DNA from: Pseudolactococcus hodotermopsidis
GTDB taxonomy: Bacteria > Bacillota > Bacilli > Lactobacillales > Streptococcaceae
Length of the DNA: 39,884 nucleotides
Assembly: GCF_011170085.1 (NCBI RefSeq)
Contig: NZ_BLLI01000012.1
Location: 1-39,884, forward strand
Direction of reading: 5' to 3'
The translations under genes were made by a program, and so were the position numbers. Under the pieces are notes generated by a model, which saw only the letters and a list, made by a program, of their open reading frames with translations, did not search any database and had not been told where the DNA came from. Below, piece by piece: positions 28,551-33,942 of this stretch. Numbering within the stretch: position 1 is the stretch's first letter; each line of letters opens with the position of its first letter.

Positions 28551-28585
28551 AGATTTGTACGACACGCATTACAAGTATAAAAAAC

Positions 28586-28662
28586 AAAAAAGGCACATAC
28601 CCACCCTACTTAGGGCTGCTTGCTTCCGCATCTGACCCACTTCATAGACTGACTATTGCCTC
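28586..28662 (-). ncRNA. ffs: signal recognition particle RNA (small bacterial type)
   Basis: The conserved domain IV is plain on the minus strand: GGTCAGATGCGGAAGCAAGC followed by AGCCC. The ends GGCA and TGTGCC can pair, and a T run follows. It forms the Ffh-binding RNA of SRP for co-translational membrane targeting. The expected 5' end (G at 28662) is exactly six bases after TATAAT. It lies just downstream of tadA, as in other Streptococcaceae. Confidence 0.93.
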
Positions 28663-28668
28663 ATTACT

Positions 28669-28677
28669 ATTATATCA
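28669..28677 (-). promoter_or_regulatory. promoter of the SRP RNA
   Basis: TGATATAAT on the minus strand. The TGA of this extended -10 is the stop codon of tadA. Confidence 0.75.
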
Positions 28678-29154
28678 CACTTTTGCCTTTTTGCGACGAT
28701 TTTTGAAAAAATTTTGCATCATTTCGGCACATTCTTTTTCTAAAATGCCAGATTCGACTTGTAAACGATGATTTAAGCGCTCATCTTCGAGAATTTGGTA
28801 CAAACTTACCGCACCACCAAATTTAGGATTGGTTGCACCAAAATAGACTTGCGGCAGTCGTGCCAAGGAAATCGCACCCGAACACATAACACAAGGCTCA
28901 ATCGTTACAAACAGCGCACAGTCAAGCAAACGCCAGTTGCCGACGACCTCATTTGCCAAATCAATGGCACAAATTTCTGCATGGTGGGTCGCTTTTTGAT
29001 GCCATTCACGCGCATTAAACGAGCGGGCGATAATCTCACCATTCTTGACAATGACTGCGCCAATTGGCACTTCATCGTTATCTGCTGCCTTTTTGGCCTC
29101 ACGTAATGCCTCGCGCATAAAATTATCTTTTTCTTTTTCGGTAAATGTTATCAA
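28675..29154 (-). CDS. tadA: tRNA adenosine(34) deaminase
   Basis: 159 residues. It converts A34 to inosine in tRNA-Arg(ACG). The deaminase zinc site is complete: HAEICAID (about 58-65, His and Glu) and PCVMCSGA (about 88-95, two Cys). The frame starts at TTG 29154, overlapping the stop of the MBL gene by four bases. That start gives the family N-terminus (FTEKEKDNFMREALREA), whereas the first ATG would lose it. Confidence 0.92.
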   Translation of the reverse strand: MITFTEKEKDNFMREALREAKKAADNDEVPIGAVIVKNGEIIARSFNAREWHQKATHHAEICAIDLANEVVGNWRLLDCALFVTIEPCVMCSGAISLARLPQVYFGATNPKFGGAVSLYQILEDERLNHRLQVESGILEKECAEMMQNFFKNRRKKAKV

Positions 29155-29909
29155 AATGTCTTAAAATCCCATGATTTATGCGGTTCAGCAAGTTCAGTTG
29201 ACACACCTTGCGCCGCATTTTCAGCTTCTTTGCGTAACTGTTCCAAATCGCCAAACTGTGGCAAATGTGTCAGAACTAATTTTTTCACACCTGCTTGACA
29301 TGCCGCTTGCCCCGCCTCAACACTTGACAAATGGTTAGGCATGTTTGATTTATCAGCAAAAAAGTAAACATCCGCTAACAGCATATCAACCCCATTTGCA
29401 AAGTCAATCAAACCGTCAAACCATCCTGTATCGCCAGTAAAGACAAGCGTTTGACCAGTTTTTCGCTCAATAATCCGCATCGCATAACATAGAATCGGGT
29501 GAACCGTCTCTTTGAAAGTTATATCGAAAGGTCCAACTTTCTGCACGCCATGAACATCATAAGCAATGCCTTTGGAAACGCCATCAAGCGTGAGATTTTT
29601 GAAAGCCTGCGCATCTTTATCATGACCGTAAATTTTGAGAATGGCGCTATCCCAATCGGGGTCGGTCTTAGGCCAAAGCTGACGATACTGGCGCAAAACA
29701 CCAAGATCAGCGATGTGATCCTCGTGGTAATGACTGACAATCGCGGCATCCAAACACAAAGGCGAGATTTCATGCTCAAGCTCAGTTACCGCACGACTCC
29801 CCGCATCAATCAAAAGGTTAAAACCGCTATCACTTGTCAGCAAATACGATGTCGTTCCCGCATCTTTGTAAGGATAGCCACCCCAAACACCCAAAGCTGT
29901 TAATTTCAT
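29151..29909 (-). CDS. metallo-beta-lactamase-fold hydrolase
   Basis: A 252-residue MBL-fold protein with the metal-binding HYHEDHIADLG motif (about 60-70), a downstream DTGW motif and LTHLPQFG near the C-terminus. It resembles YhfI-type cytoplasmic hydrolases of Firmicutes. The substrate is unknown, with phosphodiesters possible. It starts at ATG with AAAGGA 11 bases upstream and precedes tadA with overlap, so they share a transcript. Confidence 0.85.
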   Translation of the reverse strand: MKLTALGVWGGYPYKDAGTTSYLLTSDSGFNLLIDAGSRAVTELEHEISPLCLDAAIVSHYHEDHIADLGVLRQYRQLWPKTDPDWDSAILKIYGHDKDAQAFKNLTLDGVSKGIAYDVHGVQKVGPFDITFKETVHPILCYAMRIIERKTGQTLVFTGDTGWFDGLIDFANGVDMLLADVYFFADKSNMPNHLSSVEAGQAACQAGVKKLVLTHLPQFGDLEQLRKEAENAAQGVSTELAEPHKSWDFKTF

Positions 29910-29949: not shown

Positions 29950-29958
29950 ATTTTACCA
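29950..29958 (-). promoter_or_regulatory. extended -10 promoter of the MBL-tadA operon
   Basis: TGGTAAAAT on the minus strand, about 40 bases before the MBL start codon. It is back to back with the small RNA promoter on the other strand. Confidence 0.5.
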
Positions 29959-29964
29959 TAATTT

Positions 29965-29997
29965 TTTAAGGTTAATTTAAGGTAAGTGCCGTATAAT
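29965..29997 (+). promoter_or_regulatory. CiaR-type direct repeat and -10 of a small RNA
   Basis: TTTAAG (29965-29970), five bases, TTTAAG (29976-29981), ten bases, TATAAT (29992-29997). This matches the published CiaR site NTTAAG-N5-WTTAAG and its fixed distance to the -10 in streptococcal csRNA promoters. No normal -35 is present, as expected for an activator-dependent promoter. Confidence 0.75.
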
Positions 29998-30003
29998 AAA
30001 TTT

Positions 30004-30074
30004 ATTCCTAAAAAAACTTTTTCATTCTTACTCCGAAAACCGTCGCTCAGACAAAAACAGAGCGGTGTTTTTTT
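30004..30074 (+). ncRNA. probable CiaR-dependent small RNA (csRNA-like)
   Basis: The predicted transcript is about 70 nt. It starts six bases after the -10 and ends in an intrinsic terminator (CGCTC at 30044-30048 with GAGCG at 30060-30064, then GTGTTTTTTT). In its single-stranded middle lies TCATTCTTACTCC (30022-30034), whose complement is GGAGTAAGAATGA, a ribosome-binding site, spacer and ATG. Streptococcal csRNAs carry just such a segment and repress translation of targets such as comC. No ORF is present. The function is inferred from architecture. Confidence 0.7.
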
Positions 30075-30177: not shown

Positions 30178-32562
30178 TTATTTTTTAAAAAATCGCTGCG
30201 CAATCTCAACGCTTGCCATGGCATCTTTGGCGTAATAATCCGCATCAACAAACTCACGATAGTCTTCATTTAGGACAGCACCGCCAACCATAAATGTCGT
30301 GTCTGGCGCAGCTGCCTTGACTGCCGCAATCGTTTTCTTCATATTTTGAACAGTCGTTGTCATCAAAGCCGACAAGCCAACAAGTTTGATGTCTTGCGCA
30401 ATAACCGTGGCAACAACAGTCTCAATCGACACATCTTTTCCAAGGTCCACAACATCATAACCATAATTTTCCAAAATCATCTTAACAATATTTTTACCAA
30501 TATCATGAATGTCCCCCTCAACAGTGGCAAGCAAAATTTTTCCGAGATTTTCAGACTGCTGACCCGATTGGGCGAGTTTGTCTTTCAAAACTTCTTGCGC
30601 ATTTTTGGTCGCCTCTGCTGATTGCATGAGTTGTGGCAAAAATAAGTCACCGTTTTCAAATTTAGCGCCGACAACATCAAGTGCTGGGATAAAATAGGTG
30701 TTGACGATGTCAAGTGGTGTCATTGTTTCAAGTAATTTCCTCGTCTCAGTAGCAGTCAATTCCTTGCGACCTTTGATAATCATGTCTTTCAAATCTAAGT
30801 TTTCAGCTGTTTTGACTGGTGCTGCACCATTGGCGCCAGCCGCAGACACTGCGATATTAGCCCCTTGCTCTTTGTCAATGAAATCCGCAGAATTGGCATC
30901 TTGTCCTGTAAAAACACGAATTGAACGCACAACGCTCATCATATAATCTGACAGCGGATTCATAATTGGCGCATCAAGCCCTGCACCAAAAGCCTGTGCC
31001 AAAAATGTGCCGTTTAAAAGCGCACGATTTGGCAAACCAAAAGAAATATTTGACAAGCCAACGACCGTCTTACAGCCTAGACGCTCCTTGACAAGCCGAA
31101 TCGTGTCAAGCGTGACAGGCACTTGGTCTTGCTGAGCAGAGGCCGTCAAAACAAGCGGATCAATCATCACACGGTCGGGCGTAATGCCATACTTACCAGC
31201 CTCATGTACGATTTTCTCCGCAACTTGATAGCGTTTCTCAGCCGTTTCGGGAATGCCATCATTATCAAGACACAGCCCCAAAACCACGCCACCATATTTG
31301 GCGACAATCGGAAAAATTTTGTCCATACTAGACTGCTTGCCATTGACCGAATTAATCAGCGGAACGCCGTTATAATGCCGCGCACCAGCCTCAAGCGCCG
31401 CAATTTCTGACGAATCAATCTGCAAAGGCAAATCAAGTAAGGACTGGAGTTCTGTAACCGTTTTGATCATCATCTGCGCCTCATCAATCTCGGGCAGACC
31501 AACGTTGACATCCAAAATATCTGCACCCGCATCACGTTGCGCAACCGCCTCTTTGATAATATAACTAACATCATCTTTACGAAGCGCCTCCTTAAGACGA
31601 GGTTTCCCAGTCGGATTAATCCGCTCGCCAATCAAGGTCAGACCGTTGCCAATTTCAACCGTTTTCAAACCAGATGTGACAAAAGTCCCCGATTTCGTCT
31701 GAGGCACAACTTTTTCAGTTTTGTTGATAATGGTGCGCAGTTGTCTGATAAACTCTGGTGTCGTCCCACAGCAACCACCCACTACCGAAACACCTTTATC
31801 TAGGAGTTTTTGTGTGTAGTCGGCATAAGTTTCAGGCGAAATTTTATAAACTGTCTCGCCATGCTCCATTTGAGGCAAGCCAGCATTTGCCTGTACCATG
31901 ACAGGCACTTGAGCGTAGTCCAAAATCGTTGCTACAATTGGTGCTAGTTCCTTTGGTCCAAGTGAACAATTAACCCCCAGCACATCAACGCCAAGATTCT
32001 GCAAAGTTAGCGTTGCAGTCTGGGGATCAGTGCCGACAAATGTTCGCCCGTCCTCTTGATAGGTCATGGTCACAAAAACAGGCAAATTCGTCTTTTCCTT
32101 GACCGCAAGAATGGCGATTTTCGTTTCTAACAAATCAGCCAAGGTTTCGATAATGACCAAATCTGCCCCTGCATTTTCAGCAAGAATCGCTTGTCTTGCA
32201 AACATATCATAGGCAGCTTCAAATGACAAAGTCCCCATTGGTTGCAATAACTGCCCCGTTGGTCCCATATCATAGGCAACATATTTCGGATTCGCTTTTT
32301 TAGCGAGTTTGACTGCCGTTGTGATAACTTCTGCCAATTCCTCAGCGGTCATTTTAGTCGTGTTAGCTTGAAAAGTATTAGTTGTGATAACATCCGCTCC
32401 CGCTGCAACATAATCAGCATGAATCGCCGCAACTATTTCTGGGTGCGAGAGATTAAAATGCTCTGGAATCCCACCAATCGGCAGTCCACGATTCTGCAAC
32501 TGCGTCCCCATTGCCCCATCAAAAAGCAAAATTCTATCTTTTAAATCGTCTAAAATCGTCAT
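30178..32562 (-). CDS. metH: cobalamin-dependent methionine synthase, short form
   Basis: 794 residues in three modules. The homocysteine-binding barrel spans about 1-290 (DGAMGTQLQ, zinc Cys in VNCSLGP and the GGCCGTTPEF pair). The pterin (methyl-folate) barrel spans about 310-580 (LIGERINPTGKP, ADILDVNVGLP). The B12 cap and Rossmann domain spans about 600-794, with EGDIHDIGKNI (around 685) supplying the cobalt-ligating His. The C-terminal S-adenosylmethionine reactivation domain of long MetH is absent; a separate gene in this operon supplies it. MetH makes methionine from homocysteine using methyl-folate. Confidence 0.93.
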   Translation of the reverse strand: MTILDDLKDRILLFDGAMGTQLQNRGLPIGGIPEHFNLSHPEIVAAIHADYVAAGADVITTNTFQANTTKMTAEELAEVITTAVKLAKKANPKYVAYDMGPTGQLLQPMGTLSFEAAYDMFARQAILAENAGADLVIIETLADLLETKIAILAVKEKTNLPVFVTMTYQEDGRTFVGTDPQTATLTLQNLGVDVLGVNCSLGPKELAPIVATILDYAQVPVMVQANAGLPQMEHGETVYKISPETYADYTQKLLDKGVSVVGGCCGTTPEFIRQLRTIINKTEKVVPQTKSGTFVTSGLKTVEIGNGLTLIGERINPTGKPRLKEALRKDDVSYIIKEAVAQRDAGADILDVNVGLPEIDEAQMMIKTVTELQSLLDLPLQIDSSEIAALEAGARHYNGVPLINSVNGKQSSMDKIFPIVAKYGGVVLGLCLDNDGIPETAEKRYQVAEKIVHEAGKYGITPDRVMIDPLVLTASAQQDQVPVTLDTIRLVKERLGCKTVVGLSNISFGLPNRALLNGTFLAQAFGAGLDAPIMNPLSDYMMSVVRSIRVFTGQDANSADFIDKEQGANIAVSAAGANGAAPVKTAENLDLKDMIIKGRKELTATETRKLLETMTPLDIVNTYFIPALDVVGAKFENGDLFLPQLMQSAEATKNAQEVLKDKLAQSGQQSENLGKILLATVEGDIHDIGKNIVKMILENYGYDVVDLGKDVSIETVVATVIAQDIKLVGLSALMTTTVQNMKKTIAAVKAAAPDTTFMVGGAVLNEDYREFVDADYYAKDAMASVEIAQRFFKK

Positions 32563-33868: not shown

Positions 33869-33942
33869 TGATCCCAGCAGGATTCGAACCTGCGACCGTT
33901 CGCTTAGAAGGCGAATGCTCTATCCAGCTGAGCTATGAGACC
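33869..33942 (-). tRNA. tRNA-Arg (anticodon TCT)
   Basis: A 74-nt cloverleaf. The acceptor stem is GGTCTCA with TGGGATC and discriminator A. The D-arm is AGCTCAGCTGGATAGAGC, the anticodon stem TTCGC/GCGAA with loop CTTCTAA (anticodon TCT), and the T-arm GCAGGTTCGAATCCTGC. CCA is not encoded. It reads AGA codons. Confidence 0.96.

Follow-up and report, generated by a model that had tools for sequence, protein, structure and literature searches.

A predicted csRNA gene and a putative CiaRH regulon in Pseudolactococcus hodotermopsidis

Anatomy of the csRNA locus

The window, i.e., the whole stretch of 39,884 nucleotides analysed here (contig NZ_BLLI01000012.1 of Pseudolactococcus hodotermopsidis, GCF_011170085.1), carries an intergenic region with csRNA hallmarks between an MBL-fold gene and a metH-like gene. 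A preliminary description of this DNA had placed there a CiaR-controlled small RNA sharing a back-to-back promoter region with the MBL gene, and both neighbours as well as a likely -10 element for the MBL gene were indeed located. The features are listed below with the evidence for each.

29151-29909, - strand: MBL-fold gene, left neighbour
29950..29955, - strand: likely -10 element of the divergent MBL gene, TAAAAT with an extended TGG (by reading)
29965..29981, + strand: CiaR direct repeat TTTAAG-N5-TTTAAG, operator, with GTTAA as N5 (sequence)
29992..29997, + strand: -10 element TATAAT, ten bases 3' of the repeat (sequence; equal spacing in relatives)
30004..30074, + strand: csRNA gene with a predicted 71-nt transcript, type A in its own genome (published start/end convention; intact in three relatives named below)
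30005..30013, + strand: UUCCUAAAA, matching the csRNA nonamer at 8/9 positions (sequence, alignment)
30022..30034, + strand: anti-translation-initiation segment UCAUUCUUACUCC, anti-AUG plus anti-Shine-Dalgarno (sequence; equivalent in relatives)
30041..30074, + strand: intrinsic terminator with an 8-bp stem, an 11-nt loop and U7 (by reading; consensus fold of four orthologues)
30178-32562, - strand: metH-like gene, right neighbour

The csRNAs, for which PMC3091779 cites Halfmann 2007 as the first description, are called by Marx et al. from a CiaR repeat, its spacing to the -10 element, a segment complementary to Shine-Dalgarno and AUG, and a terminator (PMC3091779). All of these features are present in the window, which supports the csRNA identity proposed earlier. 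The two halves of the repeat (TTTAAG at 29965-29970 and at 29976-29981) keep their G residues intact, and the -10 element, for which up to two mismatches to TATAAT are tolerated, has none; the described arrangement of repeat, ten bases and TATAAT is thus borne out. With the start placed seven bases after the -10 element, following the convention of Marx et al. (PMC3091779), the predicted RNA begins with AUUCCUAAAA, composed of an A and UUCCUAAAA. The latter matches the nonamer [A/C]UCCUAAA[A/C] at 8 of 9 positions, directly at the 5' end, and adds a csRNA hallmark that the preliminary description had overlooked. A sequence close to this nonamer occurs in all but four streptococcal csRNAs, either at the 5' end or following the first stem-loop (PMC3091779).

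The DNA at 30022-30034 reads TCATTCTTACTCC, and its reverse complement GGAGTAAGAATGA corresponds to GGAG-N5-ATG, as had been claimed; folding prediction leaves this segment of the 71-nt RNA unpaired. The terminator stem pairs 30041-30048 with 30060-30067, including two G-U pairs, and is followed by seven T. A non-coding stretch of about 70 nt had been announced, and no open reading frame of at least 20 aa starts within 30004-30074; the gene is intergenic, its terminator lies within 250 nt, and its 71 nt fall into the csRNA size range of 51-202 nt. Folded with three bases past the U-run, the RNA outperforms shuffled sequences only modestly (z -1.45, with 17/200 shuffles equally good), and its fold is the least stable among the 14 Pseudolactococcus csRNAs compared. 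A generic promoter and terminator scan listed neither the csRNA promoter nor its terminator, probably because the promoter is without a -35 hexamer and the scan admits only loops of 3-8 nt. At the csRNA locus, Rfam places no family over threshold, at gathering as well as relaxed settings. Elsewhere in the window it recognises a small SRP RNA adjoining a tadA-like gene (28576-28672, - strand) and a tRNA (33869-33942, - strand).

Recurrence of the pattern and conservation in relatives

The bare CiaR repeat alone is weak evidence, being present in 12/100 shuffles of the window and not enriched in the whole genome (9 matches vs 12 for the reversed control). When a loose -10 element ten bases after the repeat is required as well, 82 sites vs 15 in the control are found in 19 genomes sampled from the raffinolactis group, Lactococcus, Floricoccus and Lactovum, and 36 vs 1 in four Streptococcus genomes. 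Adding a 5' UCCNAA to the CiaR promoter leaves 3 occurrences in the own genome. This composite pattern, with TATAMT as the -10 element and UCCNAA at the RNA start, matches in 34/97 Streptococcaceae genomes, i.e., in 10/12 of Pseudolactococcus, 13/18 of Lactococcus, 11/46 of Streptococcus (genus inferred) and 0/21 of seven other genera. Pseudolactococcus and Lactococcus were recognised by match positions identical to those of named genomes, and Floricoccus by a CiaR position in common. The pattern is strict: it occurs in none of 4 Floricoccus genomes and overlooks csRNA-like genes in which a half-site reads TTTAG, Floricoccus L080 being an example. In an order-wide sample it is found in 3/98 genomes, all three inside the family, to which 14/98 belong, and in none of the 84 genomes of the order outside Streptococcaceae. 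The reversed pattern is absent from both the 97-genome and the 98-genome searches, which have 14 genomes in common.

A pattern of the RNA body devoid of any promoter matches exactly three times in the 2.3-Mb genome, each time behind a CiaR promoter, with 0 matches for the control. Likewise, the nonamer core is present at 35/67 CiaR-type promoters vs 6/1016 other TATAMT sites, and the nonamer together with the anti-initiation segment at 27/67 vs 2/1016, the background in both comparisons consisting of loci chosen for these motifs or their neighbours rather than of random DNA. By eye, both exceptions are csRNAs, one in a shifted -10 register and the other with a single half-site. The combined features of the csRNA locus are far beyond chance.

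Across genomes, a csRNA gene was counted where a CiaR promoter with TATAMT is followed by the nonamer core. By this rule, 16 of the 19 non-Streptococcus genomes have at least one gene, with 33 genes among the 82 sites. The exceptions are the two L. plantarum genomes and Lactovum; each of them has CiaR and an htrA-like CiaR site (gene assigned by eye), and in Lactovum there is also a csRNA-like stretch failing the rule (L144, by eye). Genes of csRNA type were also seen in L. cremoris (L104, L114, L115 and L116 of genome G012) and in further Lactococcus loci (L086, L106, L122 and L139). The type formed by L086, L106, L114, L122 and L139 carries CCCUAAAUAAUUUCUUCAUAA(A)CCCC, of which the anti-Shine-Dalgarno part would fit GGGG and not GGAG. 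In Floricoccus tropicus, a csRNA-like gene (L030:2736, + strand) lies upstream of an MBL gene, with its orientation relative to MBL reversed. The preliminary suggestion that the CiaRH-csRNA regulon reaches the lineage of the window, a modest one given that csRNA-like genes also exist in Lactococcus and Floricoccus, is supported.

The MBL protein of the window is 80-83% identical to those of L. raffinolactis, L. reticulitermitis, L. piscium, L. insecticola, L. plantarum and a termite MAG. L. raffinolactis is now classed as Pseudolactococcus (NCBI taxonomy), and the other species of the raffinolactis group are taken to belong there from PMC12281737, as far as its accessible part goes, and from their closeness. 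An intact csRNA divergent from the MBL gene is present in three of seven relatives, namely L. raffinolactis, L. piscium and L. insecticola, and is therefore dispensable. Inspected by eye, the csRNA at this position has diverged in the two L. plantarum genomes and is reduced in L. reticulitermitis (L024) to a remnant that keeps the terminator stem without -10 element and anti-initiation segment, and none is visible in the termite MAG. The four intact copies agree in all of the first ten bases, and their terminators vary in sequence with the stem preserved. Indeed, the consensus of the four orthologues has 9 pairs, 8 of them changed on both sides, with 4/36 cells broken; a pair was counted as covarying when both sides change in at least one sequence. 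Of the 14 csRNAs from the group, 12 were chosen as alignment rows, and in these the two TTAAG, most of the -10 element and ATTCCTAAAA are invariant; the remaining two, both from L. piscium, begin with ACCCC.

That AT-rich motifs were assembled by chance, or that the locus is a degraded relic, would agree with the lack of enrichment of the bare repeat over its control in the own genome and with the remnant of L. reticulitermitis. This explanation is scarcely credible against the composite pattern, which is never found in controls, the orthologous position of the gene, the compensatory changes in its terminator and the intactness of all motifs in the window.

CiaR, its kinase and the putative regulon

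The preliminary description had named absence of ciaRH, the genes for a stress-sensing two-component system, from the genome as the finding that would speak against it; the genome holds one CiaR orthologue with an adjacent kinase. Among 14 response-regulator matches in the own genome, the protein encoded at L020:1171-1839:- is the best match for six CiaR orthologues taken from Streptococcus, Lactococcus and Lactovum. It is 75.7% identical to S. agalactiae CiaR, vs 36.7% for the next own response regulator, and its identity to four CiaR proteins of streptococci is 74-77%. Its recognition helix reads VVEVYMSKLRKKL vs VVEVYVSKVRKKL in S. agalactiae, the latter as printed for strain NEM316 in PMC3091779. 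Among the matches listed, one CiaR match per genome at E <= 1e-55 was obtained in 22/22 genomes searched. The gene is adjoined by a HisKA-domain kinase, so that both a CiaR and a CiaH candidate are present. Over the 371 aa compared, the gene running off the locus end, this kinase is 42-65% identical to ciaR-adjacent kinases of 17 other genomes, the lowest value being that of Streptococcus pseudoporcinus, the sole Streptococcus in the comparison. For regulator and kinase alike, the best 25 matches in NCBIfam belong to other families and all stay under their cut-offs. A further 34 selected genomes gave a CiaR match in 10/13 members of the family, at 55-83% identity, and CiaR-like proteins in 8/21 genomes outside it; these were not counted as CiaR because they are only 50-60% identical and come without the csRNA pattern. 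LlrA of L. lactis was dropped as a CiaR orthologue since PMC11244767 equates it with CovR, in the part of that paper available.

The genome-wide scan for further CiaR sites that had been proposed adds a second and a third csRNA gene as well as an htrA-type site. The own genome thus has three csRNA genes, type A of the window and the following two.

Type B, G000:C1:8203: between methyltransferase-like and GNAT genes
Type C, G000:C46:4801: between dnaJ-like and marR-like genes

A CiaR promoter also precedes a gene for a protein that combines Trypsin_2 and PDZ (L006) and is an HtrA by its domain make-up. Ahead of ciaR itself (L020) stands TTCAG-N5-TTTAAG-N10-TAAAAT, a CiaR-like site with one half altered, and this degenerate site suggests autoregulation in the own genome. 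Three other loci (L003, L005 and L007) show bare CiaR-like repeats without a -10 element ten bases on; by eye, what follows them resembles a lipoprotein gene, a gene for a secreted protein and an ABC transporter operon.

The CiaR site of the window could be thought to control chiefly the divergent MBL gene, the rightward transcript being a by-product. Indeed, the repeat (29965-29981) coincides with the expected MBL -35 region, the MBL -10 element is nine bases away, and by reading the divergent layout looks similar in the relatives compared. The rightward RNA, however, has the nonamer, the anti-initiation segment and a covarying terminator, its sister csRNAs share the RNA body and adjoin unrelated genes, and the repeat is oriented toward MBL oppositely to what is seen at csRNA and htrA-type promoters; a main role in MBL control is accordingly improbable. 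Control of the csRNA gene and of the MBL gene may nevertheless hold together, as CiaR may act in both directions.

A genuine sRNA could also be driven by another OmpR-type regulator or by a constitutive promoter. The 14 response-regulator matches of the own genome leave room for such a regulator, binding by CiaR being a prediction, but the motif, its spacing, the recognition helix, the htrA-type site and the CiaR-like site before ciaR all indicate CiaR, which makes this explanation, if anything, slightly less probable than the MBL one.

Proposed function and comparison with known systems

The window element is very probably a csRNA gene, encoding a CiaR-activated antisense RNA predicted to block translation initiation as part of a CiaRH regulon. 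What is observed directly is the sequence anatomy and its conservation, CiaR with its kinase, the sister genes and the site before the htrA-type gene; from this anatomy we infer transcription, CiaR dependence and the antisense mechanism. Phosphorylated CiaR would bind the TTTAAG repeat and activate a promoter in which the repeat replaces the -35 element. RNA polymerase would then produce the 71-nt RNA, stopping at the terminator, and the unpaired UCAUUCUUACUCC would pair with the Shine-Dalgarno sequence and start codon of target mRNAs, blocking ribosome loading. Together with its two sister csRNAs and the HtrA-type protease, the window csRNA would form a CiaRH regulon whose simplest origin would be inheritance from an ancestor in common with Streptococcus and Lactococcus.

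Targets were searched with GGAGTAAGAATGAAAA, allowing at most three mismatches, and the 48 matches, including the csRNA itself, are not enriched vs the 41 obtained with the reversed query. This is in keeping with PMC12323649, according to which most of the known csRNA targets escape prediction programs. Among the 47 other matches, 29 were inspected, 13 of which lie at the possible start of an ORF of at least 40 aa, one of these sitting inside a longer open frame. The duplex energies calculated for eight candidates are not trusted without a null, and no target is claimed. In streptococci, comC is reported as a csRNA target (PMC4507080).

The 5' end AUUCCUAAAA is nearly constant while the anti-ribosome segment varies. 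It is likely that the whole CiaRH-csRNA-HtrA circuit goes back to the ancestor of Streptococcaceae and functions in Pseudolactococcus, Lactococcus and Floricoccus, and that AUUCCUAAAA has a conserved function of its own throughout the family, with a protein or RNA partner. The genes with csRNA hallmarks in Lactococcus, including L. cremoris, and in Pseudolactococcus offer non-pathogenic laboratory hosts for studying the regulon. So far csRNAs have been studied as a streptococcal system; the other genera permit targets to be compared across genera, and such a view separates a conserved part, the 5' nonamer, from a freely changing one, the anti-ribosome segment.

The literature on the distribution of the system is divided. 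CiaH searches gave no homologue in Lactococcus, among others, as stated in PMC3091779, and CiaRH is said elsewhere too, in the passages available, to be absent outside Streptococcus. The regulator and kinase found in these genomes do not agree with statements confining CiaRH to Streptococcus. A KEGG-based survey reports CiaH and CiaR from bacilli as well as from further classes, with no mention of csRNAs in its accessible sections (PMC8895600), and CiaR-H is named among regulators of lactic acid bacteria (PMC12839946). The available parts of PMC4839699 contain nothing on this, those of PMC6027394 add nothing, and the main text of an L. lactis paper on stress sRNAs (PMC5603721) has neither 'Cia' nor 'csRNA'. 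At the level of titles and abstract openings, with subscription papers and preprints thinly covered, no report of csRNAs in Lactococcus was found. The window csRNA is thus of a known kind, here in genera without a prior csRNA report found in the literature.

In Streptococcus, csRNA expression was shown by Northern blots, with CiaR dependence in S. oralis (PMC3091779). The window gene resembles these csRNAs in its repeat, ten-base spacing, 5' nonamer, unpaired anti-Shine-Dalgarno/anti-AUG segment and terminator, in the several copies of its own genome and in an RNA size within 51-202 nt. It differs in its host, a member of the Lactococcus raffinolactis group, and in a nonamer beginning with U. 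Its only stem-loop is that of the terminator, a class that accounts for 16/61 streptococcal csRNAs (PMC3091779). The own CiaR helix has M and L, whereas streptococcal CiaR has V or I (PMC3091779, Table 1). As in streptococcal CiaRH, there is an orthologous regulator with a near-identical helix, an adjacent kinase and a site before an htrA-type gene.

Multicopy sRNAs tied to a two-component system and pairing with ribosome-binding sites are also known from Listeria, in the LhrC/LisRK system. Its working is similar to that proposed for the window csRNA, whereas its regulator and RNA sequence are different, so that LhrC/LisRK is an analogy and the csRNAs of Streptococcus are the family to which the window gene very probably belongs.
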